Assembly: GCF_027531815.1 (NCBI RefSeq)
Contig: NZ_JAPZSK010000002.1
Span: 124,001 to 188,000, forward strand
Length of the DNA: 64,000 nucleotides
Reading direction: 5' to 3'
DNA from: Gemmatimonas sp.
GTDB lineage: Bacteria; Gemmatimonadota; Gemmatimonadetes; Gemmatimonadales; Gemmatimonadaceae
The stretch's first letter is position 1. Each line of letters begins with the position of its first letter. Shown in pieces: positions 6,238-64,000 of this stretch. The notes beneath the pieces are model-generated. The model had not been told where the DNA came from and did no database searches. It saw nothing but the letters and a program-made list of their open reading frames with translations. Both the position numbers and the translations under genes were made by a program.

Positions 6238-7769
6238 GCCACGCCGACCGCAAGCGCGGCAACAACGAGCCGGTGGACACCGGCAAGACGATCGCGTTCA
6301 GCATCAACGGCGTTCCGTGCACGGCGTTCAAGGGCGAGACCGTGATTCAGGCGGCACGGCGCGCGGGCATGGACATCCCGCACTTCTGCTGGCACCCGGA
6401 TCTCTCGGTGCCGGGCAACTGCCGCATCTGCATGGTGGAGGTCGAACAGGACAAGGGCGACCCCTGGTTCGACATCGGCTGCAACATGCCGGTGACCGAG
6501 GGGATGCGGGTACTCACCGAATCCGACACGGTGAAGAAACTGCGTCGTGAAACGATGCAGTTCATCACCCTCAATCATCCGGTGGACTGCGGTATCTGCA
6601 ACAAGGCTGGCGAGTGCATCCTGCAGGACTACCACTACGAGCACAACGGGCGCGCCTCGCTCTCCATCGACCGCAAGAACCACGCAACCAAGTTCTACCC
6701 GTTGTCCGACCGCATCATGCTGGACAACGAGCGGTGCATCATGTGCACGCGCTGCGTGCGCTTTACGCACGAGGTCTCGGAGTCGCACGCCCTCGCCGCC
6801 GTCCATCGCGGTGATCACGCGCTCATCCGCCCCGCGGAGGATGCGAACTTCAACGAGGACGCCTACTCCGACAATGTGATCGACATCTGTCCGGTGGGCG
6901 CCTTGCTGTCGCGGCAGAACCTCGATCATGCGCGTGTGTGGTATACCAGGGCCACACCGAGCGTCTGTCCGGGGTGCTCACGCGGGTGCAGCATCAACAT
7001 CTGGCATCGCAAGCCCGAGTGGGCGCTCAAGGCGCTCGACCCGCAGCTCAATACGCGCATCGAGCGCGTGACCCCGCTGGAGAATCCGGCGGTGAACGAT
7101 ATGTGGATCTGCAACAAGGGACGTGACCTGGCGCAGCTCTTCGAGCGACCGCGTGCCATGCAGGCGCTGGTGCAGGGCATGCCGGTGGAACTGGACGTCG
7201 CCATCGACCGCGCCTCAGCGCTCCTGCGCGGCGCGCGCCGTGTCGTAGCCTTGGTCTCGAGTTGGGGATCCAACGAGGAACTCGCCGCTTTCCATGGTGC
7301 TTTCGCCGATCGGCTCGGCGCGTCGATGGGGGCGTACGCGAAGCCCGATCAGCTGCCGCTCCCGGGCGAAGTGCTCGAGGATGCGCTGCTCATCAAGGCC
7401 GACAAGAATCCCAATCTCACGGCCGCGACGGCCCGCTTCCCGCTGTTGCCCGCCGACGCGGCGGCGGCGCTCACGGACAGCGACGTGGTGCTCGTGTGGG
7501 GCGAAGGGGTGGCGGACGACGTGCTGCCGCCCGGCGCCACGGTCATCCGACTCGACGGCTATGCCTTCGCGCACAATGCCACCGCCCACGTGTTCATTCC
7601 GCTCAGCATTCAGACGGAGCGCAGCGGTCACTACACCAATTTTGCCGGCACGGTGACCCCGTTCACGGCCTGCTTCCCCCCCAAGGCACCGGTGGCGCAC
7701 GCCGAGCAGCTCTTCGCGCGTCTGGCCGGTCACCCGGCGCCGCGCGCGCTGGCCGGAGCCGGCGCATGA
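6234..7769 (+). CDS. nuoG: NADH-quinone oxidoreductase subunit G, short form retaining cluster N7
   Basis: 511 residues, the Fe-S electron wire of the peripheral arm. Ligand sets read in order: [2Fe-2S] N1b C52, C63, C66, C83; His-ligated N5 H115, C119, C122, C128; N4 C168, C171, C174, C219; and N7 C245, C248, C252, C293. The molybdopterin-oxidoreductase-like C-terminal region is only about 210 residues, much shorter than the several hundred in most NuoG proteins (about 680-910 in total). It ends with a recognisable but trimmed QTERSGHYTNFAGTVTPF segment. Start ATG overlaps the nuoF stop; the stop overlaps the nuoH ATG. Confidence 0.95.
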   Translation: MSHADRKRGNNEPVDTGKTIAFSINGVPCTAFKGETVIQAARRAGMDIPHFCWHPDLSVPGNCRICMVEVEQDKGDPWFDIGCNMPVTEGMRVLTESDTVKKLRRETMQFITLNHPVDCGICNKAGECILQDYHYEHNGRASLSIDRKNHATKFYPLSDRIMLDNERCIMCTRCVRFTHEVSESHALAAVHRGDHALIRPAEDANFNEDAYSDNVIDICPVGALLSRQNLDHARVWYTRATPSVCPGCSRGCSINIWHRKPEWALKALDPQLNTRIERVTPLENPAVNDMWICNKGRDLAQLFERPRAMQALVQGMPVELDVAIDRASALLRGARRVVALVSSWGSNEELAAFHGAFADRLGASMGAYAKPDQLPLPGEVLEDALLIKADKNPNLTAATARFPLLPADAAAALTDSDVVLVWGEGVADDVLPPGATVIRLDGYAFAHNATAHVFIPLSIQTERSGHYTNFAGTVTPFTACFPPKAPVAHAEQLFARLAGHPAPRALAGAGA

Positions 7770-48290: not shown

Positions 48291-48296
48291 TATGAT
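48291..48296 (+). promoter_or_regulatory. Possible -10 element TATGAT for the S9 peptidase
   Basis: TATGAT at 48291-48296 lies about 70 nt before ATG 48367 and 38 nt after the preceding stop. No good -35 is seen 17 nt upstream. If it is used, the in-frame ATG inside it (48292) cannot be the start, which supports ATG 48367. Confidence 0.35.
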
Positions 48297-48366
48297 AGGG
48301 CGCGGCGAGGCCGGTGGTGCTTCGGCCGTGAACGGTCGCGTTTCCCTCTCCAGGACGGATGCCGCC

Positions 48367-50817
48367 ATGTCCTCTCTCGTCTTGCTCAGCCGCCTCCTTC
48401 GCGTGACCGCCGGTGGCGGTGTCGCCGGATTGCTGGTGTGGCCCGCGCTTGCTCTCGCCCAATATCAGCAGCCGCCCGCGCCGATCTCGCAGATTCTGGA
48501 TCAGCCGGCCACCCCAGCCGTGCTGTTGAGTCCCGACCGCACCACGCTGGCCGTGTTGTCGTGGCCGGGCCTTCCCTCCATCCGCACGGTCGCGGGCGTC
48601 GAGTACCGCCTCGCCGGACGACGGTTCGACCCGGCGACCAGTGGCCCCTCGCGCGGCACCGGTTACACGGGGCTGGCCCTGCAGTCGGTCGCCGGTGGAG
48701 CGGCGCGCCCCATCGCCATGCCCCTCCCGGCGGGCGCGACGATGGGCGACGTGATGTGGTCGCCAGACGGCCGGCGCCTCGCGTTCACCATGACGGCTGA
48801 CTCGACGATCACGCTGTGGACCGCCGACGTCGCGACGGCGAACGCCACGCGCGTGACCGGGCAGCGGCTCAATGCGGTCCTCGGCCGGCCCTGCACGTGG
48901 GTGAGCGGGGAGCGGCTGGCGTGCACCTTCGTGCCGATCAGTCGCGGGGCGCAACCGCAGGCGCCCACCACGCCCGATGGCCCCATCGTGCAGGAAGCGC
49001 TGAGTGGTCGGGCCGAACGGGCCGCGACCTATCAGGATCTGCTCAAGAGTCCGTACGACGAGCGGGTCTTCGAGCACTTCGCCACGAGCCAGCTGGCCCT
49101 CGTTGCGCTCGACGGAACGGTGACGCCCCTCGGCCCACCGGCCATGCGCACCGGCGTCGATCCGTCGCCCGACGGGCGCTTCCTGCTGGTGAGCACCGTC
49201 TCGCGCCCGTTTTCGTACACGGTGCCCCTGGAGTACTTCCCCACCCGCACCGACGTGTGGGCCGTGGACGGTCGGGTGGTGAAGACCGTGGCCGACCGCC
49301 CGCTCATCGAACGGGTCCCGTGGGGTGGCGGCTCAGCGCTCACCGGGCCACGTACCATCGGGTGGCGCAGCGACGCCGACGCGACCCTCGCGTGGATCGA
49401 GGCCCTCGATGGCGGCGATCCCGCCGCGAAGGTCGCGAAGCGGGACCGCGTGCTGCTGCTGCCGGCGCCCTTCGCGAGCGGAGCGACGACGCTGGTGGAG
49501 ACGGAATACCGCGCGACCAGCATCACGTGGGACTCGCCGACCCGGGCGATCGCTCGCGAGCTCGACGCGCGTACGCGCCGGACCCGCACCTGGCTCATTG
49601 ACCCGTCGGGTGCGGCCGCGCCGCGCCAGCTGTGGGAGCGCAGCAGCGAAGACCGGTACGGCGATCCCGGTGAGTTCCTCACCACCCGCGATGCGCGTGG
49701 CCGGGTGCGACTGCTCACCACACCGGACGGACGCCACGCCTTCCTGACCGGACCCGGGGCCAGCCCCGCGGGCGACCAACCGTTCCTCGATCGGTATGAG
49801 CTCGCCAACGGGCAATCCACGCGCCTCTTCCGCAGTGCGGCGCCGTACTTCGAGCAGGTGACCAGCGTGCTGGACGCGACCGGCACGCGCGTGGTCACGC
49901 GGCGGGAGTCCAAGTCGGAGCCGCCCAACTACTTCGTGCGCGAACTCGGGCGGAAGGGGGCGCCGCGCGCGCTCACGGCGTTCACCGATCCGGCGCCGCA
50001 GTTCGCCGGCGTCACGAGCCAGCGCATCACGTACAAGCGCAAGGATGGCGTGCAGCTGTCGGCCACCGTGCACCTCCCGCCGGGCTACGACAAGGCAAAG
50101 GACGGGGCGTTGCCATTCCTGCTGTGGGCGTACCCCCTCGAATTCCGTTCCGCCGAGGCGGCCTCGCAGGTCACGGGGTCGCCCTATCGCTTCACGCGTC
50201 CCGCCGGGATGTCGCACTTGTTCATGCTGACCCAGGGGTACGGCGTGATGGACGATCCGACGATGCCGATCGTGGCCTTCGACGGAAAGGAGCCCAACGA
50301 CACGTACGTGGAGCAGCTCACCGCGAGTGCGCAGGCCGCCGTGGATACGCTCGTGGCCATGGGGGTGGCCGATCGTGATCGCATCGCCGTGGGCGGACAC
50401 TCCTACGGCGCCTTCATGACGGCCAACCTGCTGGCGCACACGCGGCTGTTCAAGGCCGGCATCGCGCGCAGCGGGGCCTACAATCGTACCCTCACGCCGT
50501 TTGGCTTCCAGGGCGAGGAGCGTTCGTACTGGGAGGCGCCAGAGCTGTACGAGCGCATGTCGCCGTTCACGTATGCCAACCGGATCAAGGATCCGATCCT
50601 GCTCATTCACGGCATGGCCGACAACAACACCGGCACGTTCCCCATGCAGAGCGAGCGCATGTACCAGGCGCTCAAGGGGAACGGGGCCACCGTGCGCTAT
50701 GTGCAACTCCCCGCTGAATCGCACGGCTACCTCGCGCGCGAGAGTGTGGGGCACACGCTGGCCGAGATGGCGGCGTGGCTCGACCGCTATTTGAAGAAGT
50801 CGAAGACGGCGATGTAG
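48367..50817 (+). CDS. Secreted S9-family peptidase (glutamyl/prolyl oligopeptidase type)
   Basis: 816 residues. Signal peptide (about 1-30, GLLVWPALALAQ), propeller region with PD40-like repeats (MWSPDGRRLAFTM, DPSPDGRFLLVST), and a C-terminal alpha/beta hydrolase. The nucleophile is in AVGGHSYGAFMTANLL, Asp in LIHGMADNNTGTFP, His in PAESHGYLARES. GFQGEERSYWEAPELY is typical of the glutamyl-endopeptidase-like S9 group. ATG 48367 begins the signal peptide; the earlier ATG 48292 overlaps a probable -10 element. Confidence 0.92.
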   Translation: MSSLVLLSRLLRVTAGGGVAGLLVWPALALAQYQQPPAPISQILDQPATPAVLLSPDRTTLAVLSWPGLPSIRTVAGVEYRLAGRRFDPATSGPSRGTGYTGLALQSVAGGAARPIAMPLPAGATMGDVMWSPDGRRLAFTMTADSTITLWTADVATANATRVTGQRLNAVLGRPCTWVSGERLACTFVPISRGAQPQAPTTPDGPIVQEALSGRAERAATYQDLLKSPYDERVFEHFATSQLALVALDGTVTPLGPPAMRTGVDPSPDGRFLLVSTVSRPFSYTVPLEYFPTRTDVWAVDGRVVKTVADRPLIERVPWGGGSALTGPRTIGWRSDADATLAWIEALDGGDPAAKVAKRDRVLLLPAPFASGATTLVETEYRATSITWDSPTRAIARELDARTRRTRTWLIDPSGAAAPRQLWERSSEDRYGDPGEFLTTRDARGRVRLLTTPDGRHAFLTGPGASPAGDQPFLDRYELANGQSTRLFRSAAPYFEQVTSVLDATGTRVVTRRESKSEPPNYFVRELGRKGAPRALTAFTDPAPQFAGVTSQRITYKRKDGVQLSATVHLPPGYDKAKDGALPFLLWAYPLEFRSAEAASQVTGSPYRFTRPAGMSHLFMLTQGYGVMDDPTMPIVAFDGKEPNDTYVEQLTASAQAAVDTLVAMGVADRDRIAVGGHSYGAFMTANLLAHTRLFKAGIARSGAYNRTLTPFGFQGEERSYWEAPELYERMSPFTYANRIKDPILLIHGMADNNTGTFPMQSERMYQALKGNGATVRYVQLPAESHGYLARESVGHTLAEMAAWLDRYLKKSKTAM

Positions 50818-50909: not shown

Positions 50910-52154
50910 ATGCCCGCCTCCGATTCCCCGCCGTCCTCGCGCCGCGTCGTCTGGTTGCTGGCCCTCATGGGGCTCGTGGCCTACGCGCTGCGCACCAACA
51001 TCGCCATCGCGCAGGAGTACATGGCCCCGGAGCTGGGGCTCACCATGGTGCAGATGGGGGTGATCTCCGCGTGGGGATTCCAACTGGCCTACACGATTGG
51101 GCAAGTCCCCGGCGGCGCCATGGGCGATCGCCACGGGGCGCGGCTGGTGTTGGCGGTGGCGGGGGTGGGCTGGGCCGTGGCGTCGCTGGCGTCGGGCGCA
51201 GTCGTGGGGTCGGGTATGGTGGCATTCACGGGGCTCTTTGCCGCCCGGCTGTTGCTTGGTGCGTCGCAGGCGGCCACCTACCCGGTGTCGGCCGTGGCCG
51301 TGGCGCGCCACGTCCCCGAGGGCGGTCGCACCGCCGCCAGCGCGATCTATCTGGCGGCCTCCACGCTGGGGGCTGCGCTGGCCCCGCTGACCCTCACGCC
51401 GCTCATGGCGAAGGCCGGCTGGCGGGCGGTGTTCCTCGTCAGCGCCGCGGTCGGCATGGGAGCGGCGGGCGTGTGGTACCTGCTTGCCCCACGGGACCGG
51501 GTCATTCCGTTGGGCGTCACGGCCACGGACCACGCCCCGTCGCTCTGGCAGCAGACAGGGCGACTCCTGCAGAATCCAGCGCTCCGACGGCTGTGCGCCG
51601 CGTATCTCCTGCACTCGGCCGTGCTGTACGTGTTCTTCTTCTGGTTCTTCCGCTACCTCATCGAGGCGCGCGGCTTCACGCTGCTCGAGACTGGCGTGTG
51701 GGCCAGTCTGCCGTATCTGCTGGCCACCGTCGCGGCCCCCCTCGCCGGCATGCTGGCCGACCGGCTGGCCCGGCAGGTCGGGCTGGCCACCGCGCGCCGT
51801 CGGGTGGCCATCAGCGGGCTCACCCTCGCGTCCCTGCTGGTCCTCACGGGGGCGTGGATTCCCACCCCCACGTTGGCCATCGTCGCGCTCAGTCTGTCGG
51901 CGGCGTGCCTGATCAGCTGTGAAGCGCCCTTCTGGACCACGGCGGCGGCACTGGGGCGTGAAGGGGAAGGGGCCGCCACCGGCGTCCTCAATCTCATGGG
52001 GAACGTGGGGGGCATCCTCTCCATCTGGCTGGTGCCGCTGATGAAGGACGCCTGGGGGTGGTTCGCCATGCTGGCCTTCTGGGCGGCGGTGGCGCTCGTG
52101 GCCGCCGCCCTCTTCGCCTCCACGGGACGGGACGAACGCATGCGCTCGACCTGA
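50910..52154 (+). CDS. Major facilitator superfamily transporter (anion:cation symporter type)
   Basis: 414 residues, about 12 transmembrane helices. MFS signatures: AYALRTNIAIAQEYMAPELG in helix 1, GGAMGDRHGARLVL (the helix 2-3 loop motif), YPVSAVAVARHVPEGGRTAASA and the central cytoplasmic loop near 200. It resembles ACS-type importers for organic anions such as sugar acids. It converges with soxG and lies beside the peptidase-sox run, so the imported compound might be a product of that pathway; this is only a positional hint. Confidence 0.88.
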   Translation: MPASDSPPSSRRVVWLLALMGLVAYALRTNIAIAQEYMAPELGLTMVQMGVISAWGFQLAYTIGQVPGGAMGDRHGARLVLAVAGVGWAVASLASGAVVGSGMVAFTGLFAARLLLGASQAATYPVSAVAVARHVPEGGRTAASAIYLAASTLGAALAPLTLTPLMAKAGWRAVFLVSAAVGMGAAGVWYLLAPRDRVIPLGVTATDHAPSLWQQTGRLLQNPALRRLCAAYLLHSAVLYVFFFWFFRYLIEARGFTLLETGVWASLPYLLATVAAPLAGMLADRLARQVGLATARRRVAISGLTLASLLVLTGAWIPTPTLAIVALSLSAACLISCEAPFWTTAAALGREGEGAATGVLNLMGNVGGILSIWLVPLMKDAWGWFAMLAFWAAVALVAAALFASTGRDERMRST

Positions 52155-52217: not shown

Positions 52218-52793
52218 CTATGCCCCCTCCATCGCGTCTGCCAGCCACTCGACCACGTACGATACGAACGACGGGCGTACCAGCAGGCGCCACGTGGGGG
52301 TGGCATCGACCAGCTGCAGCAGCACCGGTGCGCGCGCGAGCAGCGTCTGGGTGGCGTGCCCCACGGGGAAGGTGCGCGGGTGCAGGTCCAGCGTGCACAC
52401 GGCCGCCAACAGGTCGCGTGCGCGCGGGCCCGACAGCTCCAGGACATGCCGGCTGGCCGACAGCTCCACCACGGCGCCGTCGGTATCCGGTGTCCCGTCG
52501 CCCACGGCCTGCGACAGCGCGGTCAGCAGCGCGTCACGCGACGCGGTTGGTGCTTCCACCAGCCACTCGTCGGGCCGGAGCCACGTCACGCGCCCCGCCG
52601 GTGACGACACCATGGGGCCGTGACCAGGCAGCGCCTCCACCGCGAGCGCGGCAGCCACGCGAGAGCAGGCGCCTCCACGGGCGCGCACACTGATCAGCAG
52701 GGTCAACGGCAACGCCCGCAGCGTGGCGGCCGGCGACGACACCGCCGCCATGCGGGCCCGGAGCGCCGGATCGACGGGGATACGGTCACTCAT
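52218..52793 (-). CDS. soxG: Heterotetrameric sarcosine oxidase gamma subunit
   Basis: 191 residues. Typical SoxG segments: VTWLRPDEWLVEAP, VELSASRHVLELSGPRARDLLA, CTLDLHPRTFPVGHATQTLL and WRLLVRPSFVSYVVEWLADAM. The fold is related to the folate-binding half of SoxA/aminomethyltransferases. ATG 52793 overlaps the soxA stop (ATGA). Last gene of the soxBDAG set and of the long minus-strand run. A weak hairpin CCCCA-CAGC-TGGGG (52204-52217) overlaps its end. Confidence 0.92.
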   Translation of the reverse strand: MSDRIPVDPALRARMAAVSSPAATLRALPLTLLISVRARGGACSRVAAALAVEALPGHGPMVSSPAGRVTWLRPDEWLVEAPTASRDALLTALSQAVGDGTPDTDGAVVELSASRHVLELSGPRARDLLAAVCTLDLHPRTFPVGHATQTLLARAPVLLQLVDATPTWRLLVRPSFVSYVVEWLADAMEGA

Positions 52794-55624
52794 TGGTGAT
52801 CTGCGCCATCCCGCCGCGCCCCCTCGGGATCGTAATGCACCGGGTCCACCAGGGTCACCGATGCCACCCGCCCGTCGAGGAGCGGGGCGTGCAGCACCTC
52901 GCCCAGCCGCGCGCGTCCGTCGCGCACCAGCGCGAGCCCGAGGGCACACGCCAGCGTGGGACTGTAGCGACTGCTGGACACATGCCCGTCGATGGGCATT
53001 GGCGGGGCCCCCAGCGCGCTGGTGAGGGCGACGCCTTCGGGAATCACCAGCTGCGGGTCGTTGGCGCGGAAGCCCACCAGCTGCGCCCGCCCGCCCGCCC
53101 GCGGTGCGACACGTTCCAGTGAGCGGCGCCCCACAAACGTTTTGCGCGCGGGCACCATCCACCCGAGCCCCGCGTCGTGCGGTGTGGTAAGTGCCTCGGT
53201 GTCCTGCCCCACAATGAGGTACCCCTTTTCGATGCGCAGCACCTGTAGTGCGTCGAGGCCATACGGCGTCACCCCCAGTGGCGCGCCCGCGGCCAGCAGC
53301 GCCCGCCAGAGGGCGGGCCCGTCGTGCCACGGGACGCTCACTTCGTAGGCCAGCTCGCCCGAGAAGGAGACGCGCGCCACCTGCGCGTTTGCGATGCCGG
53401 CCACCGTGGCGGTGCGCACCGCAAGAAACGGGAACGCGTCACGGTCCACCGCCAGGCCCGGGGCGACATGCGCGAGCAGCGTGCGCGAGGCGGGTCCGAC
53501 CACGGCGACGGTGGTGAACTGTTCGGTGACGGGGGTCACCCAGCAGCGCTTGTCGGGCCACTCCGTCTGCAACCACTCCTCCATCCACTCGGCCACCGCG
53601 GCGGCGTGCCCGGTGGACGTGGTCACGAAGTACCGGTGCGCGCCGGTGCGCATGACCACGCCATCGTCCAGAATGGACCCGTCGAGATGACAGAGGACCG
53701 CGTAGCGCGCCTTCCCCTCGGGGAGCGACGCCAGCGGGGTGACATAGAGCTGGTCCAGCACCCAGGCGGCATCGGGGCCGCGCACGTCCAGCTTGCCCAA
53801 CGTGGAGACATCGGCCAGGGCCACGCCGGTGCGCGCCGCGCGCACCTCGCGCCGCACGGTGTCGTCGATCGATTCGCCTTCGCGCGGATAGCGCGACGCG
53901 CGCAGCCATTGCCCCGCCGGTTCGAAGACGGCGCCCAGCGCCTCGTGTTCCGCATGCAGGGCGGTGGTGCGCACGGGGTCGAACCGCGTGCCCTGCGCGC
54001 GGCCGGCCACCAGGTGAAAGGGGATCGGCTCCACCGGTGGCCGGCTCCCCGATGTGCCCACCACGGCGGCCGCGTGTCCAGCGCGCGCGGCCACCAGCGC
54101 GGCCGCCAGCACCTTCGCGGCGCGTCCCTGCTCCACGCCGGTCCCGACGAGCGTGTAGCGCTTCACGTGCTCCACATGCGTGGCGCCGGCATCCACCGCG
54201 CGCACGATGCCGGCCACGGTCGCATCGCGATGCAAGTCCACGAAGCTGCGCGACTCGTCGCCATCGGGGGCGGGCACCTGCCACGTCAGTCCAGGCGGGT
54301 CCTCGTCCACGTCGTCGGTCGTTGGGGCGGCGGCCTCGCCATCCAGCCCCAACGCCGCGCGCGCCGCGGTCGCTCCCTGGGCGAGCGCATCCGCGAGTGT
54401 CAATCGACCAGTCACGGCGCCGGCGAGCCATTGCCCGGGGAGCGGCGCGGACGGCACGGCCGTGCCCAACCGTTCGTCGTACGTACTCGTGCCACCCAGA
54501 TGCAGATGCAGGTGCAGGTTGGGATCCACGCCGGCGGAGGTGGCAAGCAGGTCGGTCTCGAGCGTGAGTGTGGTGTCGCCGGTCTGTACGTGAACAGCGC
54601 ACAGGGTGCCGTACGCGTCGGCGTCGGTGCCCACCACCTGGGCCTTGTCGAGCACGCGGACGCCCGCCGCACGCACCGCGGACCGCAGCGGACTGGTGCC
54701 GGGAGGGCGCATGTCCACGACAGCGGCGACCGACACGCCGGCCTCGTGCCACGCCAGCGCCGTGCGATAGGCATCATCGTGCGCGGTGAACAGCACGCCG
54801 CGCGCGGGGGCGAGCGCATGCTGCCGCAGGTAGTGGCGCGCGGCGCCCGCCAGCATGATGCCGGGGCGATCGTTGTCGGGGAACACCAGCGGGCGCTCCA
54901 GCGTGCCGGTGGCCAGCACGATGGCCTGCGCGCGCACTTGCCAGAGCCGCTGCTCGGGTAGCGCGCCGCGCGCCGCCTCGGGGAGGGCGCCCCCCACGCG
55001 CTGGGCCAGCCACATGCCGTTTTGGTCGAGGGGCATGACGGCGGTGGTACCGGTGAGCACCGTGACGTCGGGCGCGGCGCGCAGTTCGTGTTCGACGGCC
55101 GCCAGCCACGCCTCGGCGGGAGCGCCATCGATACGACGCGCCTCGCGCCGCAACGCGCCGCCCACCACCGGCGCGCAGTCGGCGAGAAGGACCCGCGCGC
55201 CGGCGCGCGCGCCTTCCAGGGCCGCCGCCAGTCCCGCTGGCCCGGCGCCCACCACCAGCAGGTCGCAGTGGGCGTACCGCCAGTCGAAGCGGGAGGGGTC
55301 ACGTGCGGGGACCAGCGTCCCCTTCACGATGCGACCCTGGGCCGACAGCCCCTCGTACAACGGCAGCGCCGTGGTGCGCACCAGCGGCTCCTCCACCGGC
55401 GCCCTCGCCACCTGGGCGAAACCGGTGGCTTCCTCGAGCCCCGCGCTCATGATGCCGCGCGGGCGCCCCGCCGACACGCTCGTGCCGAGCACCCGCACCC
55501 CGGCTCCGAGCAGCGCCGATGCCAGCGTGTCGCCGGCGAAGCCGCTGAGTCGTGTGCCGTTCCAGGTGAACGCGAGCGGCCGGGTGCGGTCGATGCCGAG
55601 TCCACCCGTAGCGAGGCGCTTCAC
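52790..55624 (-). CDS. soxA: Heterotetrameric sarcosine oxidase alpha subunit
   Basis: 944 residues. N-terminal [2Fe-2S]-like fold without the cysteines (FTWNGTRLSGFAGDTLASALL), NAD/FAD-binding domain with LLVVGAGPAGLAAALEGARAG, and C-terminal aminomethyltransferase-like folate domains (DVSTLGKLDVRGPDAAWVLDQLYV, FSGELAYEVSVPW, LRIEKGYLIVGQDTE). Family reaction: oxidation of sarcosine to glycine with transfer of the methyl carbon to tetrahydrofolate. GTG 55624 overlaps the soxD TGA as GTGA. Length is normal for the family. Confidence 0.95.
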   Translation of the reverse strand: MKRLATGGLGIDRTRPLAFTWNGTRLSGFAGDTLASALLGAGVRVLGTSVSAGRPRGIMSAGLEEATGFAQVARAPVEEPLVRTTALPLYEGLSAQGRIVKGTLVPARDPSRFDWRYAHCDLLVVGAGPAGLAAALEGARAGARVLLADCAPVVGGALRREARRIDGAPAEAWLAAVEHELRAAPDVTVLTGTTAVMPLDQNGMWLAQRVGGALPEAARGALPEQRLWQVRAQAIVLATGTLERPLVFPDNDRPGIMLAGAARHYLRQHALAPARGVLFTAHDDAYRTALAWHEAGVSVAAVVDMRPPGTSPLRSAVRAAGVRVLDKAQVVGTDADAYGTLCAVHVQTGDTTLTLETDLLATSAGVDPNLHLHLHLGGTSTYDERLGTAVPSAPLPGQWLAGAVTGRLTLADALAQGATAARAALGLDGEAAAPTTDDVDEDPPGLTWQVPAPDGDESRSFVDLHRDATVAGIVRAVDAGATHVEHVKRYTLVGTGVEQGRAAKVLAAALVAARAGHAAAVVGTSGSRPPVEPIPFHLVAGRAQGTRFDPVRTTALHAEHEALGAVFEPAGQWLRASRYPREGESIDDTVRREVRAARTGVALADVSTLGKLDVRGPDAAWVLDQLYVTPLASLPEGKARYAVLCHLDGSILDDGVVMRTGAHRYFVTTSTGHAAAVAEWMEEWLQTEWPDKRCWVTPVTEQFTTVAVVGPASRTLLAHVAPGLAVDRDAFPFLAVRTATVAGIANAQVARVSFSGELAYEVSVPWHDGPALWRALLAAGAPLGVTPYGLDALQVLRIEKGYLIVGQDTEALTTPHDAGLGWMVPARKTFVGRRSLERVAPRAGGRAQLVGFRANDPQLVIPEGVALTSALGAPPMPIDGHVSSSRYSPTLACALGLALVRDGRARLGEVLHAPLLDGRVASVTLVDPVHYDPEGARRDGADHQ

Positions 55625-55890
55625 GAGGTCGGCTCCGCCGGCGGCGCGCTCACCGGCCGCGTCGCCACGATCGCGTGTGTGCGGGTATCGCGCACCACGT
55701 GAAGCCATTGCCGACAGCCGTGCACGTGCACCCACTGCTCGGTCAGCGGGCCCAGCGGGGTGTCGCGCAGGTACAGCACGCGTGCCCACTCCTCGTCGGT
55801 GGCGTGCTCGGGGAGAGGCACGCCGGAGCCCGCGTGACGGAACTCCACTTCGTCGCGCGGGCCACAGTGGGGGCAGGGAATGCGCAACAT
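55621..55890 (-). CDS. soxD: Heterotetrameric sarcosine oxidase delta subunit
   Basis: 89 residues, zinc-binding subunit. MLRIPCPHCGPRDEVEF gives the C-x2-C, WARVLYLRDTPLGP is the family centre, and EQWVHVHGCRQWLHVVRDT supplies the further Cys/His ligands. ATG 55890 was chosen at the start of the conserved domain; the frame continues upstream but overlaps soxB. It lies 1 nt after soxB and overlaps soxA. Confidence 0.95.
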   Translation of the reverse strand: MLRIPCPHCGPRDEVEFRHAGSGVPLPEHATDEEWARVLYLRDTPLGPLTEQWVHVHGCRQWLHVVRDTRTHAIVATRPVSAPPAEPTS

Positions 55891-55891
55891 C

Positions 55892-57106
55892 TCAGTGTGC
55901 CACTCCTGCGGCGCCGTGCTCGTCCACGAGGGCGCCGGTGGTGAAGCGTTCGAGACCGAAGGCGGCACTCAACGGGTGCGGCGTGCCCGTGGCGAGTGTG
56001 TGCGCGAAGACCACCCCCGAGCCGGGCGTGGCCTTGAAGCCACCGGTCCCCCAGCCGCAATTGAGGAAGAGTCCGTCACGCGGCGTGGCGCCGATGATGG
56101 GGGCGGCGTCGGGGGAGACATCCACCGTTCCCGCCCACACGCGCAGCAGGTGCGCGCGCGCCATGATCGGGTACAGCTCCATGGCCGCCTGGAGTTGCTG
56201 TTCGAGAATGTGCGACGAGCCGCGCTGTGCGTACGACCGATAGGGATCGCGCGCGGCGCCCATGACCAGCTCCCCCTTGTGTGCCTGGCTCACGTACATG
56301 TGCAGACGCCCCGAGAGCGCCACGCAGGGCAGGAACGGCTCGTGAATATCCGAGACGAGCGCCTGCAGCGGGTAGCTCTGCACGGGCACCTCGATGCCGG
56401 CGAGACGGGCCAGGAGCGGGGTGCGCCCCGCGCTCACGAGCCCGACGCGGCCAGCGCCAATGTCGCCGCGTGTGGTCCGCACGCCGGTGATGCGGTTGCC
56501 GCTGCGCACGAACCCGGTGACCTCGCACCCCTGCAGGAGGTGCACCCCCGCCGCATCGCAGGCGCGCGCAAGGTGGAAGACCACCGCATCGTGACGCGCA
56601 ATCCCGCCGCGCGGCTGCAGCGCCGCGCCGTAGACCGGATAGCGCGGCGCGTCGGAGATATCGAGGATGGGGCAGAGACGGGGCAGGTCCTCCCGCGTGA
56701 CCCAGTCGGCGTCGATGCCGGCCATGCGATTCGCGTACACCACGCGCTGCGCCGCCGCCGCTTCCGCCTGCGAGTGTGCAAGGGTCAGCAGCGAGCGCTG
56801 GTCGAAGAGGATCTCCGGGCCCAGCTCCTCCGGCCATCGCTCCCACCGGCGCACGCAAAACTCGTAGAGCGGCATGCTCTCCTCGCGCAGGTAATTGGAG
56901 CGGATGATCGTGGTGTTGCGCACCGCGTTGCCGTTGCCCAGCCAGCCGCGCTCCACCACGGCCACGTTGGTGAGGCCGTGCTCACGCGCGAGATGGTAGG
57001 CGGTGGAGAGCCCGTGCAGCCCGCCGCCCACCACCACGATGTCGTACTGGGCGCGGGGTTCGGGGTGACGCCACAGGACAGGCGGATTGCGAAAGGCGTG
57101 TTCCAC
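55892..57106 (-). CDS. soxB: Heterotetrameric sarcosine oxidase beta subunit
   Basis: 404 residues. FAD-binding motif YDIVVVGGGLHGLSTAYHLA near residue 21-40, RNTTIIRSNYL, and the C-terminal PIIGATPRDGLFLNCGWGTGGFKATPGSG, all typical of SoxB. The subunit carries the substrate site with FAD and covalent FMN. GTG 57106 gives the normal N-terminus (VEHAFRNPPVLW) and lies 7 nt after the upstream hydrolase. First of the soxBDAG order. Confidence 0.95.
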   Translation of the reverse strand: MEHAFRNPPVLWRHPEPRAQYDIVVVGGGLHGLSTAYHLAREHGLTNVAVVERGWLGNGNAVRNTTIIRSNYLREESMPLYEFCVRRWERWPEELGPEILFDQRSLLTLAHSQAEAAAAQRVVYANRMAGIDADWVTREDLPRLCPILDISDAPRYPVYGAALQPRGGIARHDAVVFHLARACDAAGVHLLQGCEVTGFVRSGNRITGVRTTRGDIGAGRVGLVSAGRTPLLARLAGIEVPVQSYPLQALVSDIHEPFLPCVALSGRLHMYVSQAHKGELVMGAARDPYRSYAQRGSSHILEQQLQAAMELYPIMARAHLLRVWAGTVDVSPDAAPIIGATPRDGLFLNCGWGTGGFKATPGSGVVFAHTLATGTPHPLSAAFGLERFTTGALVDEHGAAGVAH

Positions 57107-57113
57107 GGTGGGG

Positions 57114-58280
57114 CTAGCGGGCGGAGTCGGGCGGCACGGCCACAGCGAGGGCACGGCGCACGGCGCCGAGCACGGTGTCCGGATACTCGTACGGGAAGTT
57201 ATGCGACGCGCCGTCAGGCGGATGGATGAGTTCCGCCCGGTTCGAGACCGCAAGATAGCGCACGCGGGACCGCAGGAAGAAATTCAACGCGCGCCGCTCG
57301 AGCGCCGGCGGCAGCCGCAGCGGCCGGATCTCCGCCTCCGGGCCCCCGCGCGGGATCACCACGAACACCGGCAGGCTGTCCAGCTCCCCGTCGTAGACCA
57401 CCAGATCGGGGGCTTCACGCCCCACGACCGGGGCGGTGAATTCCTCGAAGATCGACGCAGTCGCGAAGCTGTTGGCGGCACGGGCCGCTCCTGCCGACAT
57501 GGCCTCTCGCACCTCGGCTAGCAGCGTATCGCGGGCGCGCACGAAGGGCGGGGCATTGGGGCCAGGGCGCGGCGGCGGCGCCCAGAGGCCGAACGCACTG
57601 CGCAGCCCCAATTCGCGCCCCAACTGCACCAGCCCCTGCGCTGCCGCCGCCCCGAATACGGGGGCGTACACGAAGGCATCGGGGGGTGTGGCGTCCAGCA
57701 GCACGACCGCTGCCGTGCGCGCGGGATAGCGCCGCGCGTAGTTGGCCGCCAACAGGCCCCCGTATGAATGCCCGACGAGCACGAAGGGCCCCGGCTCGCC
57801 CGCACGACGAAGCAGCGTCTCCAGCTCTTCCGCCTCCACCCGCGTGCGCCGCGGAAAGGGGCCGGGGTCGCTCCACCCGGTGCCCGCGCGATCGAACAGA
57901 ATGGACCGGGTCTCGCCGCGCATGGCCCGATGCAGGTGGTACAGTGCGTTCCCCTGCTCGTGCGCGCCGGGGATCCACACCACCGTCGCGCCACCGCGCG
58001 CGTTCCCTTCGGCGAGCAGGTGCAGCCGGTACCCGCCGACATCCACCAGCGTCCCCGGCGCCGGCGCCGCTGCCATGGCGCGCTGCTGGTCGAGTCCCCC
58101 CTTGGTGCCCATGGCGGTGAGCACCACCCCGATCAGCACGGGAGCCAGCGCCACCAGGCGCAGCACCCGCCCGCGGCGACGCGCGGCCAGCGCCACCAGC
58201 CCGCCCAGCACCAGCAGGACGCCGCCCAACAGCGCCCCACCAAACGGCTGCGACAGCAGCGTATAGAGCCCGTTCAGCAT
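57114..58280 (-). CDS. Membrane-anchored alpha/beta hydrolase
   Basis: 388 residues. Two N-terminal hydrophobic helices (GGALLGGVLLVLGGLVALA and VLRLVALAPVLIGVVLTAM) anchor an alpha/beta hydrolase. Visible: VVWIPGAHEQGNALYHLH, LFDRAGTGWSDPGPFP, nucleophile elbow FVLVGHSYGGLLAANYA and a late HPPDGASHNFPYE with the His. Substrate unknown. ATG 58280 shares its A with the dipeptidase stop (TGATG), so the genes are coupled. Confidence 0.88.
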   Translation of the reverse strand: MLNGLYTLLSQPFGGALLGGVLLVLGGLVALAARRRGRVLRLVALAPVLIGVVLTAMGTKGGLDQQRAMAAAPAPGTLVDVGGYRLHLLAEGNARGGATVVWIPGAHEQGNALYHLHRAMRGETRSILFDRAGTGWSDPGPFPRRTRVEAEELETLLRRAGEPGPFVLVGHSYGGLLAANYARRYPARTAAVVLLDATPPDAFVYAPVFGAAAAQGLVQLGRELGLRSAFGLWAPPPRPGPNAPPFVRARDTLLAEVREAMSAGAARAANSFATASIFEEFTAPVVGREAPDLVVYDGELDSLPVFVVIPRGGPEAEIRPLRLPPALERRALNFFLRSRVRYLAVSNRAELIHPPDGASHNFPYEYPDTVLGAVRRALAVAVPPDSAR

Positions 58281-59605
58281 CAGTGGCCTCCCGGCGGTGT
58301 GGCGGGACGTTTCGCCCCGTCCAGCGCCTCGATGGTGGCGGTAGAGGGCTCAAGGGTGCGCTGTAGCCGCGCTGCCACCCGCTCCACCTCGGTGAACACC
58401 CGCAGGACGTTTCCGCCGGCAAGCTTGCGGAGCTCCGCGTCGCTCCAGCCACGGCGAATCAACTCGGCAAAGAGCGCCGGATAGCGCGAGACGTCCTCGA
58501 TCCCCTCCACCACATTCATCGGGCCGGTCGCGCCATAAAAGTCCGCCCCAATCCCCACATGGTCGACGCCCGCCACGCGGCGGATGTGCTCTATGTGGTC
58601 CGCCACGTCCTTGAGAGTGGCGCGCGGCATCGGGCCGTGCGTGGCGGTCCACTCGCGAAGCAGTCGCTCGGCCGCGCTGTCGCTCGTGGCCCGCTGCAAC
58701 CGCGGAATGAGCGCCTCCGACCAGCGCCGCAGCGGCTCGGACACGAACACCGTGACGAAGTTCACCTGCACCACGCCACCGTTGCGCGCCATGCGCTGCA
58801 GAATCGAATCGGGCACGTTGCGCACATGGTCGGTGAGGGCGCGCGCCGACGAGTGCGAAAAAATCACCGGGGCCTCCGACCCATCCAGCACGGCGCTCAT
58901 CGCCGCTGGCGACACATGCGAGATATCCACCATCATGCCGAGGCGGTTCATCTCGCGTACCACCTCGCGGCCGAAGGGGGTGAGGCCTCCGTGGCGCGGC
59001 AGCTCCGTTGCCGCGTCGGCCCAGTCGGTGGAGTGGAAGTGGGTGAGCGTCATGTAGCGCACGCCGAGGTCGTAATACGCCCGCAGCGCTCCCAGGGAGT
59101 TGGCAATGACGTGCCCGCCCTCGATTCCCAGGAGCGAGGCAATCCGTCCACTCGCGCGCACGCGCCGGATGTCGGCCGAACTCGCGGCGAACCCCAGATC
59201 GCGCGGATAGCGCGCGATGAGGCGCCGGGTCAGGTCGATCTGTTCCAGCTGGGCGCGCATGGCGTTCAGCGGTGAGAGGTCACTTGGCACGTAGACCGAC
59301 CAGAACTGCGTCCCCACCCCGCCGTCCCGCAGCTTCGGCAAGTCCGTGTCGCCGGCGCCGCGCGCGCGCAGATCGCGCGCGGTGAGGTCCATGGGATGCG
59401 TGGGGTCGAGGCGCAGCACCCACGGCAGGTCGTTGTGGGTGTCCACCAGCCCCACCTCGCGCAGGAGCGCCCGCGCGCGGCGCAGCGCCGCGTCGTCGGT
59501 GGCTGCCCTCTGCGCCGGCAGGGCGGTGAATGGCGCGCTCCACAGGCCCGCGATGGTCAGACCGGCCGCGGTGATCCGTGACAAGGCGTTGCGTGGGGCG
59601 ATCAT
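58280..59605 (-). CDS. Membrane (renal-type) dipeptidase, peptidase family M19
   Basis: 441 residues with a signal peptide (about 1-31, ending TALPAQ). Binuclear zinc ligands are seen in order: H-x-D in LVDTHNDLPWVL, Glu in LLGIEGGHVIAN, His in MMVDISHVSPAAM, His in IFSHSSARAL, and Asp in GVDHVGIGADFYG. M19 enzymes hydrolyse dipeptides, including ones with D- or non-standard C-terminal residues. ATG 59605 overlaps the preceding hydrolase stop (ATGA). Confidence 0.93.
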   Translation of the reverse strand: MIAPRNALSRITAAGLTIAGLWSAPFTALPAQRAATDDAALRRARALLREVGLVDTHNDLPWVLRLDPTHPMDLTARDLRARGAGDTDLPKLRDGGVGTQFWSVYVPSDLSPLNAMRAQLEQIDLTRRLIARYPRDLGFAASSADIRRVRASGRIASLLGIEGGHVIANSLGALRAYYDLGVRYMTLTHFHSTDWADAATELPRHGGLTPFGREVVREMNRLGMMVDISHVSPAAMSAVLDGSEAPVIFSHSSARALTDHVRNVPDSILQRMARNGGVVQVNFVTVFVSEPLRRWSEALIPRLQRATSDSAAERLLREWTATHGPMPRATLKDVADHIEHIRRVAGVDHVGIGADFYGATGPMNVVEGIEDVSRYPALFAELIRRGWSDAELRKLAGGNVLRVFTEVERVAARLQRTLEPSTATIEALDGAKRPATPPGGH

Positions 59606-61062
59606 GGGGCCTTCGCCGCTGGCGCCCTGGGCACTGCCGCGGCGCCCGTGGGCCAACCGCCGTCGAGGAAGGCGCGCAGCGCCGCGAGCAACTCGGCCGG
59701 GCGTTCATACTGCGGCCAGTGCCCCATGCCGGGCATCACCAGCAGGCGCCCCTGCGCCATGCCGGCTACCCACTCCTCGCTCCCGCCCAGTGGCGGATTG
59801 TCGCGGTCACCATGCACGACCAGCAGGGGCAGCCGAAAGCGGGACAGTCCTTCGCGGAAGTCAAACAGCCCCAGCTTGGCAATGAGCCGAGGCACGAAAT
59901 CGTTGTAGCGCGACCCGACCTCGTTGGGGGAGTCGCACACGTCCGGCGCACGATACCACTGGGTGGAGTCGGGCCAGTTGGTGCGCAGCCCCATCCACGC
60001 CCCGTTCCGACACCGACCCACCTCGTCGCCGGCAAACTCGCCGGCGGCGACGCGGGCGGCCATCCGCTTCTGCAGTGCCGGATCCATGCGGGGCGCCGAG
60101 TTCTTGCGCATGTCTTCCCACCAGGGTGAAAAGCGCGGCCCCACCGGGGTCAGGAGCACCAGCCGCGAGACGCGCGCCGGGAACTGCTCGGCGTAGCGAT
60201 AGGCCGCCAGCGCGCCGCCCGACCACCCCACCATGGTCACCTTGTCCGCGCCTACGGCCTGGCGAATCACCTCCGGGTCGATGGCATCGAATTCGAGAAT
60301 TCCCATCTTGTCCGGTGGCACCGAGTCGGTACGTCCGCGTCCGCGGATGTCGTAGGTCACCACACGCCGCGTGTCGGAGGCCAGGGCGTCCAGACTGGCG
60401 GCGAAGTAGTTGGCCGCGTTCACCAGCACGACGTCGGGGCCACGCCCCACTTCGCGGTACCAGAGCCGCACGCCGTCGGGGGTCGTGGCGTATCCCGTGC
60501 GCTCCGGGGGCCCCGCCTCCACCAGCCGCTTGAGGGCCGCCAGCTCCGCGTCGAAACGCTGCGCCGAGGAGCGCTGTCCCGCCGCGGCGCGCGCCCGCGC
60601 GGTGTCCGCCGCCCCGGGCGTCAGCCCGGCCGGTAGTCGCGTTTCCGCGAAGACATCGTAGCGCACCGTGGTGCGCCCATCGTGCTCCTCGAGCGAATAG
60701 GTCGCGAACCCCATGAGCGTGCCATCCGTACCCACCAGCTTCATGGTGCGACGGCGGTAGGGCACGAGTTCCGCGTTTACCAGGTAGTAGTCCGGCGCGC
60801 CCCCGGCCGCCGGGCGTGCGGCGAATACTTCGCCGGCAGCGCCCCACGGTCCCCCCGCGTGCGTGAGACGGTTCCCTTGCTTCCACGCCGACGGCTCCAC
60901 GATGTGCGGCCACACCGCCATCGCCGTGCGTGCGATGGTGATGCTGCGCTGCGCCACCAGATGGGTGGCGTCGGGCACCTGCCCGGGTGACGAGGAGGGC
61001 GCCATGGTCGCCACCACGGCGACGAACGGAAGCGTGCAACGCACGCGGCGGGCGACGGTCAT
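59602..61062 (-). CDS. SRPBCC-domain / alpha-beta hydrolase fusion, exported
   Basis: 486 residues. After a signal peptide (about 1-28), residues about 35-150 form an SRPBCC/polyketide-cyclase-like domain (VAQRSITIARTAMAVWPHI, NRLTHAGGPWG, TMKLVGTDGTLMGFATY, TTVRYDVFAE). From about 190 an alpha/beta hydrolase follows: GVRLWYREVGRGPDVVLVN, TYDIRGRGRTDSVP, nucleophile in MVGWSGGALAAYRYA, Asp in VVHGDRDNPP and His in PGMGHWPQYE. ATG 61062 is preferred over TTG 61068. It lies 18 nt after the S9 gene. Confidence 0.87.
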   Translation of the reverse strand: MTVARRVRCTLPFVAVVATMAPSSSPGQVPDATHLVAQRSITIARTAMAVWPHIVEPSAWKQGNRLTHAGGPWGAAGEVFAARPAAGGAPDYYLVNAELVPYRRRTMKLVGTDGTLMGFATYSLEEHDGRTTVRYDVFAETRLPAGLTPGAADTARARAAAGQRSSAQRFDAELAALKRLVEAGPPERTGYATTPDGVRLWYREVGRGPDVVLVNAANYFAASLDALASDTRRVVTYDIRGRGRTDSVPPDKMGILEFDAIDPEVIRQAVGADKVTMVGWSGGALAAYRYAEQFPARVSRLVLLTPVGPRFSPWWEDMRKNSAPRMDPALQKRMAARVAAGEFAGDEVGRCRNGAWMGLRTNWPDSTQWYRAPDVCDSPNEVGSRYNDFVPRLIAKLGLFDFREGLSRFRLPLLVVHGDRDNPPLGGSEEWVAGMAQGRLLVMPGMGHWPQYERPAELLAALRAFLDGGWPTGAAAVPRAPAAKAP

Positions 61063-61080
61063 GAACAAGTCAGTAAAGGG

Positions 61081-63414
61081 TCACGGGCGCAGGTGTCGCA
61101 CGAAGAACTGCGTGCGCTGCTCGTCGTTGTAGCGGGCCGTCTGTCCAACCTGACCATGGCCCGAGTTGGCGAAGATCGACAGCTCGTGCTGGAAGCCCAG
61201 CCGCACCAGCTCCTCGGACATGCGCATCGTTTCGGGGAAGGTGGCCACATCGCTGAGGGCGCTCATGAGTCGCAGGTGGCCGCGCACCTTCGGGGCCAGC
61301 AGGATGGCGTTGGCCTGGTCGTACAGCGCTGCGTTCTGCTGCGGCAGCCCGAGATAGGTCTCGTACAGCTGGTTCCCCACGGGATCGAAGCCGGGGACCT
61401 CCACCGAGGCCGCCACGTAGAGGTCGGGGGCCTGCGCCAGCGCGCGCAGCGCGTAGTGCCCGCCCCACGAGCGTCCCCAGATGCCCACGCGGGTGAGATC
61501 CATGAAGGGGAGCCGGGCCCCCAACTGGCGAATGGCGCCCGCATGGTCGGCGATCTCGAACGTACCCCACTTCCGGAACACGACATCGTGGAACGCCTTC
61601 GATCGTCCGGGGGTCCCGCGCGCGTCGAGCGTGACCACTACGAACCCCAGATTGGCAAGTGCGCGGTTGTACTGCGCCGGTCCGGGTTCGGTGAAGGTGG
61701 TGGGGCGCACCGCGATCTGCGGCCCCGCGTAGAGGAACTCCACCACGGGATACGTGCGCGTGCTGTCGAAGTCGAAGGGGAGGTACATGGTGACCCACAG
61801 GTCGGTACTCCCGTCGGCGGCCTTCACGACGTATTCGCGCGGCGGGGTCCACCCCACGCGACGCAGGCGATCGAGGCTGGCCTCCCCCAGCGTCGTGACC
61901 AGTGTGCCGTCGGCCCGCCGCAGCGCCGTGCGCGGCGCACCCGCGGGGGACGACCACGTGTCCACGAAGCAGTCGGCCAGCGGGCACATCGTCACCTCGT
62001 GCATCCCCGACCCCTCGGTGAGGCGCTGGGCCGCGCCGCCGCCCGCGAGCGGCACCCGATACAGATGCCGATCGTACGGACGCGCCGGATCACCCTGCGC
62101 CAGGAAGTACACCCACCCGCGCGGCTGGTCCACGCGCACCACCGCGGTCACAGGAAAGCTGCCCTGCGTGAGGCGCGCCACCACGCGGCCATTCAGGTCG
62201 TAGCGGTACAGGTGGTCCCATCCGTCGCGCTCCGAGCGCCAGAGAAACCCGGTGCCGTCGGGAAGGATCGTCCACGGAAAATCGTCGCCCCACACCACCT
62301 CGTGGTGGTTGGTGAGGAAGGTGGGGGAGCGCTCGCTCATGATGACGCGGGCCTCGCCCGTGGATGGGTCCGCGGCCCATACCTCCACGCTGTGCAGCAG
62401 GCGGTCGTACTTGGCCACCAGCACGCGCGATTCGTCGGGCAGCCACCCCATGACCTCGAGGTAGCTGTCGCGGGTGTCCCCGAGCTGCAACGCCACCGGA
62501 CGCCCCCACACCACATCCAGAACATACAGCGAGGGCACCTGCAGCACGCCGCCCGCCCGCGTCCACCGCGTCTCCAGCGGCTCCACGAACATCTTGAGCC
62601 ATTGCGCGCCGAGCATCTTCTGCATGCCGCGCACATCGTTGCGTTGCGCCACAAAGCGCGTGCCGCTGGGGGACCACGGTTCCCAGCGGCGCGTCTCCAC
62701 GGTCCACAGTGAATCGGCGGTGCCGTCGGTGGTACGCATGAGGGTGCGCCCGTCGGTCGCCGAGCGCAGGGCGATGTCATGCCCCTGCACGCCGAGGTAC
62801 CAGCGGCCGTCGGGCGAGCGGCGCTCGAGATTGCGCGTTTCGCCGCCGCCGGTGAAGGACTCCTGCCAGAAGGGCTGCGGCCGCTGGCGGGTCAGTTCGC
62901 TGGTGGCCAGTCGATCGCCCTCGTTCGCGGTGGGGCGCGGTAGCCGCGTCAGCGCATAGGTGGCGAGCTCCAGCTGCCAGTTGTCCCCCTCCAGCTCGAA
63001 GCGCAGCTGCTGCGGCGCGGTGAACGCCACCTGGGCAAACGGCACCCCACGGCCGGCGGGCTCGTGGCCCAGCCGTTCGACGAGGGCGCGGCGCAGCCGC
63101 TCGGCATCCAGCAGCGGCGTCGTGCGTCCGGTGGCCAGCTCCACGCGCTGCAGCACCCGGTCGTTGGGGCCGCCGTCGGCGTACCAGAGACTCGTGCCCC
63201 CCGGGATCCACCCCGGCACCACCCGCCCGCCCTGAACGAGCTGATCGAAATCGAGGTAGGCGTCGTAGACCGCGCGACGCGCCGGGCTGATCGGGGCCGT
63301 CTGCGCCACCACTGGCGTGGCCAGCGATGATGCAGCCACGAGGGCGCCAACGAACACCGCGGCGGTACGCGCGCGGGGGGCTGCAGGACGATGAGGAGAC
63401 GGTGGCACGGACAC
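61081..63414 (-). CDS. Secreted S9B/DPP4-type dipeptidyl peptidase
   Basis: About 777 residues. Signal segment (VFVGALVAASSLATPVVAQ), eight-bladed-propeller-type N-terminal domain (DPP IV family, with RSPDGRWYLGVQG, TSLWYADGG and FLWRSERDGWDHLYRYD), and a C-terminal hydrolase with GIWGRSWGGHYALRAL as nucleophile elbow and a late NSGHGQ His. DPP4-type enzymes remove N-terminal dipeptides, usually Xaa-Pro. No ATG is available; GTG 63486, 63414 and 63408 are in frame. 63486 would overlap the upstream gene by 31 nt, so I chose 63414. Confidence 0.9.
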   Translation of the reverse strand: MSVPPSPHRPAAPRARTAAVFVGALVAASSLATPVVAQTAPISPARRAVYDAYLDFDQLVQGGRVVPGWIPGGTSLWYADGGPNDRVLQRVELATGRTTPLLDAERLRRALVERLGHEPAGRGVPFAQVAFTAPQQLRFELEGDNWQLELATYALTRLPRPTANEGDRLATSELTRQRPQPFWQESFTGGGETRNLERRSPDGRWYLGVQGHDIALRSATDGRTLMRTTDGTADSLWTVETRRWEPWSPSGTRFVAQRNDVRGMQKMLGAQWLKMFVEPLETRWTRAGGVLQVPSLYVLDVVWGRPVALQLGDTRDSYLEVMGWLPDESRVLVAKYDRLLHSVEVWAADPSTGEARVIMSERSPTFLTNHHEVVWGDDFPWTILPDGTGFLWRSERDGWDHLYRYDLNGRVVARLTQGSFPVTAVVRVDQPRGWVYFLAQGDPARPYDRHLYRVPLAGGGAAQRLTEGSGMHEVTMCPLADCFVDTWSSPAGAPRTALRRADGTLVTTLGEASLDRLRRVGWTPPREYVVKAADGSTDLWVTMYLPFDFDSTRTYPVVEFLYAGPQIAVRPTTFTEPGPAQYNRALANLGFVVVTLDARGTPGRSKAFHDVVFRKWGTFEIADHAGAIRQLGARLPFMDLTRVGIWGRSWGGHYALRALAQAPDLYVAASVEVPGFDPVGNQLYETYLGLPQQNAALYDQANAILLAPKVRGHLRLMSALSDVATFPETMRMSEELVRLGFQHELSIFANSGHGQVGQTARYNDEQRTQFFVRHLRP

Positions 63415-63455
63415 GACCGGTGGTGAGGGTGAGGGCTGGCTGGGCCCCCGGGGAA

Positions 63456-64000
63456 TCAGCGCGCGCCCTGCTGCTGCGCCAGCCACGCGTCTACACGCTG
63501 TTCAAGCGCGAAGAAGGGCAGCGGACCGTCGGCCAGGATTACCCGGTGGAAGGCGCGCGGGTCGAAGCGCGGCCCCAACGCCTGCTCGGCGCGCGTCCGC
63601 AGGCGCTGGAACGTCAGCATGCCCATGCGGTAGCCCAGCGCCTGGCCGGGAATGTCGCAGCAGTAGCGCAACACCTCCGACGCCACTTCGGCGTCGGAGA
63701 TCACCGAGTTGGCGCGCAGGTAGGCCAGCCCGCGCTCGTGGCTCCATCCGAGCAGATTGAGCCCGGTATCGAGCACCAGGCGCGCGGCGCTGTAGAGTTC
63801 CATGATGCGGCGCCCATAGCGGTCGTACGGATCCCGATAGCCCCCCATCAGCTCGGCCAGCGCGGCCGCGTATTCCCCCCACCCCTCGGTGTAGGCGGTG
63901 CTGGCGTAGTTGCGGCGCAGTGGGTGCTTGTTCGCCAGCACCTCCTGCACCAGCGCGAGGTGAAAGTGATGCCCCGGGTGGATCTCGTGGTACGCCAACC
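63456..64000 (-). CDS. DUF885-family protein, C-terminal part (runs off window)
   Basis: About 181 codons are visible; the N-terminus lies beyond 64000. DUF885 hallmarks: AYHEIHPGHHFHLAL (HE-x2-H zinc-protease-like motif), AYTEGWGEYAAALAE, and the late CCDIPGQALGYRMGMLTFQRLR. The family has metallopeptidase-like motifs and is common in this type of bacterium; the exact substrate is unknown. It ends 41 nt before the S9/DPP4 start and seems to be the first visible gene of the long minus-strand run. Confidence 0.9.
   Translation of the reverse strand, partial: LAYHEIHPGHHFHLALVQEVLANKHPLRRNYASTAYTEGWGEYAAALAELMGGYRDPYDRYGRRIMELYSAARLVLDTGLNLLGWSHERGLAYLRANSVISDAEVASEVLRYCCDIPGQALGYRMGMLTFQRLRTRAEQALGPRFDPRAFHRVILADGPLPFFALEQRVDAWLAQQQGAR

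Follow-up and report, generated by a model that had tools for sequence, protein, structure and literature searches.

A run of at least 11 genes, all on the minus strand, has been found in the genome of a Gemmatimonas sp. (labelled G000; 4.3 Mb, high GC), in which a SusC-SusD pair and a series of predicted secreted or membrane-bound hydrolases precede soxBDAG, the four genes of a sarcosine-oxidase-type enzyme. The run lies at the end of the stretch of 64,000 nucleotides (nt) analysed here (the window, G000:C2:124001-188000) and continues beyond it, where positions are given in extended window coordinates. The gene layout is solid and unusual; the food molecule is a guess. An operon with peptide uptake led by SusCD is highly probable, and the chances are about even that the whole chain is a mobile peptide-utilisation operon, with a RagAB-like SusCD pair, that feeds a sarcosine oxidase. 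The genes are the following, in the order of reading:

66610-69630 (extended), minus strand: SusC/RagA TonB receptor (TIGR04056, 432 bits, cut-off 368)
65312-66601 (extended), minus strand: SusD/RagB lipoprotein (PF07980, 28.5 bits over 23.1; lipobox-like TACG)
63456-64000 in the window (full gene 63456-65312, extended), minus strand: DUF885 zinc-metallopeptidase-like secreted protein (PF05960, 380 bits)
61081-63414, minus strand: S9 peptidase of the DPP4 type with signal sequence (DPPIV_N and Peptidase_S9)
59602-61062, minus strand: secreted protein in which an SRPBCC-like domain is fused to an alpha/beta hydrolase (PF00561, 66 bits; PF10604, weak)
58280-59605, minus strand: M19 (renal-type) dipeptidase with signal sequence (PF01244, 381 bits)
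57114-58280, minus strand: membrane alpha/beta hydrolase with N-terminal transmembrane segments (PF00561; conserved GHSYGG nucleophile motif)
55892-57106, minus strand: soxB, beta subunit (TIGR01373, 530.6 bits, cut-off 529.45)
55621-55890, minus strand: soxD, delta subunit (PF04267, 90 bits; CxxC...HxxxC zinc-site residues)
52790-55624, minus strand: soxA, alpha subunit (Fer2, dinucleotide-binding and folate (GCV_T) domains)
52218-52793, minus strand: soxG, gamma subunit (PF04268)

An earlier note had described nine of these genes on one strand, with gaps of at most 41 nt and ATGA, GTGA or TGATG overlaps, and the sequence bore this out: they lie in the order given there, from 52218 past the window end at 64000, which truncates the DUF885 gene. 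Since SusC and SusD lie upstream on the same strand, the run comprises at least 11 co-directional genes and DUF885 is the third, not the first. SusC and SusD are separated by 8 nt, SusD and DUF885 overlap by TAATG, 41 nt lie between DUF885 and S9, and 12-18 nt, depending on the start chosen, between S9 and the SRPBCC-hydrolase. Overlaps follow between the SRPBCC-hydrolase and M19 (ATGA) and between M19 and the membrane hydrolase (TGATG), then 7 nt before SoxB, which starts with GTG, 1 nt between SoxB and SoxD, and overlaps at SoxD/SoxA (GTGA) and SoxA/SoxG (ATGA). In the part of the run inside the window no promoter-like or terminator-like site, including a separate soxB promoter, rose above shuffled sequences, in scans of a kind that is weak in Gemmatimonadota. 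The run is predicted to be co-transcribed as one operon.

The order that the earlier note had asked for in relatives was found in all three other sox-bearing Gemmatimonas genomes (G055, G249 and G302): SusC-SusD-DUF885-S9-SRPBCC/hydrolase-M19-membrane hydrolase-SoxB-D-A recurs there, with 78-95% identity, within the limits of the contigs. The ratio of nonsynonymous to synonymous divergence (Ka/Ks) was 0.06-0.26 for each of the 11 genes, indicating purifying selection. Given this shared order and the purifying selection on all genes, the run is not a chance alignment.

Subunits B, D, A and G are encoded together, as in heterotetrameric sarcosine oxidase (TSOX). SoxB aligned with 1vrq_B over 398 residues (531 bits) and SoxA over its full length with 1vrq_A, the Corynebacterium enzyme (716 bits). 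The His of the covalent flavin mononucleotide and the equivalent of the catalytic Lys358 are retained in SoxB, as are the zinc residues in SoxD and the folate domain in SoxA; the roles of these residues are those in the 1vrq and 2gag structures. An enzyme of the sarcosine oxidase type, with oxidation of sarcosine, is predicted from sequence.

A SusC-family receptor adjoins a SusD-family lipoprotein at the head of the run, the pairing that defines SusCD/RagAB systems; a sequence search of the PDB with SusD gave no match. RagAB takes peptides (PMC11817032). The present run resembles RagAB/SusCD loci in having the receptor and lipoprotein ahead of degradative enzymes, and differs from them in being found in Gemmatimonadota and in combining peptidases with a terminal amino-acid oxidase. 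S12, M15-fusion, S13, S9 or M19 genes stand within about 330 nt downstream of the closest SusD paralogues (44-49% identity) in 11 of the 18 loci that could be read, a count that is descriptive because the reference set was derived from those loci. D-Ala-D-Ala bonds are the target of M15 and S13 enzymes, and D-residues are tolerated by M19 enzymes, which makes peptides with unusual residues plausible. The peptide-import reading is strengthened by the SusCD pair at the head of the run and by the peptidase-linked paralogues, and we infer that the imported substrate is a peptide. We take sarcosine to be the unit released; its presence in the imported compound can be called a good hypothesis but does not count as a result.

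A recurring arrangement was also observed in loci L115, L116, L117, L118 and L128, where the gene after a SusC-SusD pair encodes a protein that joins S12 (beta-lactamase fold) to M15 (D-Ala-D-Ala dipeptidase), which suggests that these Gemmatimonadota loci serve D-residue peptides or murein fragments. In loci L112, L129 and L131 (G000, G217 and G055) a related pair precedes electron-transfer flavoprotein genes.

Signal sequences in DUF885, S9, the SRPBCC-hydrolase and M19, and the membrane segments of the second hydrolase, were called by eye, and the periplasmic, membrane and cytoplasmic locations given here are predictions. DUF885 contains the HExxPGHH and TEGWGEY motifs and has 3o0y as best PDB relative. 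The S9 peptidase is closest to bacterial DPP4 (PDB chains 5yp1 and 2ecf); its Ser/Asp/His triad is intact, with the motifs conserved in the four Gemmatimonas genomes. The fold and metal-ligand motifs of the family are intact in the M19 protein (best PDB 3id7, 381 bits), and M19 enzymes are common, with six encoded in G000. PDB profile searches gave only weak generic hydrolases for the SRPBCC-hydrolase and no match for the membrane hydrolase; an AlphaFold model of the former was discarded (mean predicted local distance difference test score, pLDDT, 50). Orthologues of the SRPBCC-hydrolase were found in the family sample only in G000, G055, G249, G302, G155 and G354, all of them with the same sox type, and in the last two genomes it is split into two adjacent genes.

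The following features flank the run:

69674-69688 (approximate, extended), upstream of susC: palindrome TGAGA-N5-TCTCA
69791-70969 (extended), plus strand: P450, divergent from susC
71097-71927 (extended), plus strand: IclR regulator, divergent from susC
50910-52154, plus strand: MFS transporter (PF07690, 145 bits), convergent with soxG, 63 nt between the stops

The palindrome, with an extra ATGAGA half-site after it, was found upstream of susC in G000, G249, G302 and G155; the G055 contig begins within susC, so the comparison covered these four genomes. No other exact copy occurred in the 3.19 Mb of sequence examined, window included. G249 and G302 have retained both the P450 and the IclR gene, and in six other genomes (G026, G104, G307, G041, G238 and G108) sox has an IclR gene of this kind no more than 415 nt away. 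From its position, the palindrome is proposed as the site at which IclR acts.

Among 30 Gemmatimonas genomes, all 4 with sox and none of the other 26 have an orthologue of the MFS transporter (83-91%), the next-best match being 36%. The chance of this distribution is 1 in 27,405 if independence is assumed; since linked genes travel together, only G302, where the gene is retained though on a separate contig, counts as independent evidence for the tie to sox. The gene is also convergent with soxG in G249 and, at 54% identity, in G354, which belongs to another genus. The transporter is probably the inner-membrane carrier of the pathway. The S9 gene just before it (48292-50817, plus strand; best NCBIfam match the Atxe2 lasso-peptide isopeptidase, 71 bits, cut-off 400) was rejected as part of the system, as no homologue of it was detected next to the MFS gene of G055, G249 or G302.

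Of the 395 Gemmatimonadota sampled, 52 encode SoxD; among the 24 Gemmatimonas genomes listed the number is 4, G000 counted, so that most congeners are without sox. Synonymous divergence (Ks) of the operon from G000 was 0.32 (G055), 0.34 (G249) and 0.53 (G302), against 0.12, 0.41 and 0.49 for rpoB and 0.23, 0.98 and 0.79 for trmD; recA was left out because its reference frame included non-coding sequence. A trmD tree grouped G000 with G055 alone, with an unresolved backbone. The G249 locus adjoins a solute-binding-protein/permease set, the 92% orthologue of which lies on G000 contig C9, and the G302 locus adjoins rimM-trmD, located at C2:299.8 kb in G000. Because the genomic addresses differ and the divergence does not track that of the two housekeeping genes compared, the simplest reading is that the locus has probably been exchanged horizontally within the genus. 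The oligopeptide ABC transporter beside the G249 locus was rejected as a component, its G000 orthologue lying elsewhere and its family being widespread.

Parts of the run were also found separately. In G155, from another genus of the same family, a cassette with SusC (68%), SusD (72%), DUF885 (52%), S9 (59%), SRPBCC (53%) and hydrolase (64%) has a divergent IclR gene (56%) and the same palindrome as G000. Unlike the G000 run it lacks M19, the membrane hydrolase and sox, and ends with an erythromycin-esterase-family gene in their place; the sox genes of G155 are on a different contig. Coupling of the uptake and peptidase part to sox is thus not obligatory. In G155 and a related metagenome-assembled genome, S9 stands next to sox; this was rejected as independent support, because a tRNA-Gly-like sequence, recognised by eye, lies between the two. 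This sequence, between S9 and soxB (L041, about 6620-6735; L137, 2050-2380), points to possible integration of soxBDAG next to a tRNA. In G368, from a third genus, a SusC-SusD pair of a different lineage lies 89 nt upstream of soxBDAG, its SusD just below the Pfam cut-off (22 vs 23.1 bits); genes for an IclR regulator and an amino-acid permease are found further upstream. As this pair is unrelated, SusCD-sox joins probably arose at least twice.

The earlier note had also stated that sox normally sits with one-carbon genes, and this agrees with about 70 actinobacterial sox loci, in which glyA clusters (46), GntR genes (52) and purU (19) were frequent and no peptidase or SusCD homologue was found in the 10 kb flanks. 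The operon glyA-soxBDAG-purU (Corynebacterium, Colwellia, Streptomyces) has been described (PMC3691474); it shares with the G000 run the four subunits, their order and the TSOX residues and domains, whereas the G000 run is without glyA and purU and has SusCD, DUF885, S9, two alpha/beta hydrolases and M19 ahead of sox.

According to the proposed mechanism, the SusC/SusD pair (RagAB-like) would bind an oligopeptide or depsipeptide at the surface and, powered by TonB, carry it across the outer membrane. Secreted DUF885, S9, M19 and the two alpha/beta hydrolases would then cleave amide and perhaps ester bonds, giving dipeptides and amino acids in the periplasm, and a carrier, probably the linked MFS protein, would move the product into the cell. 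In the cytoplasm, oxidation by SoxBDAG of sarcosine, or of some comparable small N-methyl amino acid, would yield glycine, 5,10-methylene-tetrahydrofolate and H2O2, the whole run being controlled by the divergent IclR via the palindrome upstream of susC.

Several observations weigh against this peptide operon that feeds a sarcosine oxidase. The palindrome was found neither at sox of G155 nor at the MFS gene, the link between IclR and the palindrome is one of position alone, and most sox loci outside the genus Gemmatimonas have other neighbours. The SusCD-peptidase part stands without sox in G155, which would also fit general scavenging, as would the lone position of sox in most Gemmatimonadota and the four creatininase-family proteins of the G000 genome; a shared promoter would then serve the recovery of nitrogen and carbon from dead cells, with sox acting on sarcosine from other sources (glycine betaine, creatinine) instead of the imported peptide. 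Such scavenging is considered somewhat unlikely, given that the exact peptidase-sox join is kept in four genomes at different addresses, that the MFS gene is retained along with the run and that a second, independent SusCD-sox join occurs in G368. A non-peptide conjugate of sarcosine (N-acyl sarcosine, ester or amide), with the SRPBCC protein and both alpha/beta hydrolases cleaving it, would account for these hydrolases, for the erythromycin-esterase-family gene in the G155 cassette and for the divergent P450, but DUF885, S9 and M19 in the run and the peptidase-type neighbours of the SusCD paralogues favour peptides and make a conjugate quite improbable.

The scores of SoxA (951 vs 1164 bits) and SoxD (89 vs 116.5 bits), beneath the curated NCBIfam cut-offs, likewise count against a plain sarcosine oxidase, as its substrate could have drifted. 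An oxidase for a different secondary amino acid, for example proline or a larger N-methyl amino acid, freed by S9 and M19, would agree with these scores, with the DPP4-type, prolyl-oligopeptidase fold of S9 and with the weak use of proline by the Bacillus monomeric sarcosine oxidase (PMC12582975). This is nevertheless very unlikely, since SoxB passes TIGR01373 with the TSOX catalytic His and Lys and the alpha subunit aligns full-length with 1vrq. The argument of the earlier note that a DPP4-type enzyme implies imino residues was found to be weak, because the E-E pair anchoring the substrate N-terminus in DPP4 reads V-E, in a weakly aligned region, in the four Gemmatimonas genomes and G155, one anchoring Glu thus aligning with Val. 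From the pathway proposed there, one conserved run that joins probable peptide import and cleavage to a sox-type oxidase is upheld, and N-methyl residues in the substrate are not. A dedicated, horizontally mobile catabolism of N-methylated (sarcosine-containing) peptides or depsipeptides, for example nonribosomal ones, with import, cleavage, uptake and oxidation in one operon, is rated as rather unlikely.

It is mainly in Bacteroidota that SusCD loci for peptide import are known, sarcosine oxidases are associated with the breakdown of betaine, choline or creatine, and N-methylated peptides resist ordinary proteases. No description of a SusCD-peptidase-sox operon, and nothing relevant on DUF885 or on sarcosine oxidase with peptidases, was found in the literature searched, which mostly did not extend to subscription journals. 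If the proposal holds, a peptide would be the source of sarcosine, giving a hint at the diet of poorly cultured Gemmatimonas and enzymes for N-methylated peptides. With one operator, one importer and one oxidase, the set is small enough to make the substrate question directly testable.

Two further observations concern the surroundings of these loci. In class-level relatives (L063, L064, L065, L067 and L071-L075) a second, distant SoxB-like gene (21-22% identity) lies directly before a divergent soxBDAG set, and near the G249 locus (L217, 5286-11585, plus strand) there is a 2099-residue open frame with GGDEF, HD, AAA and TPR domains.

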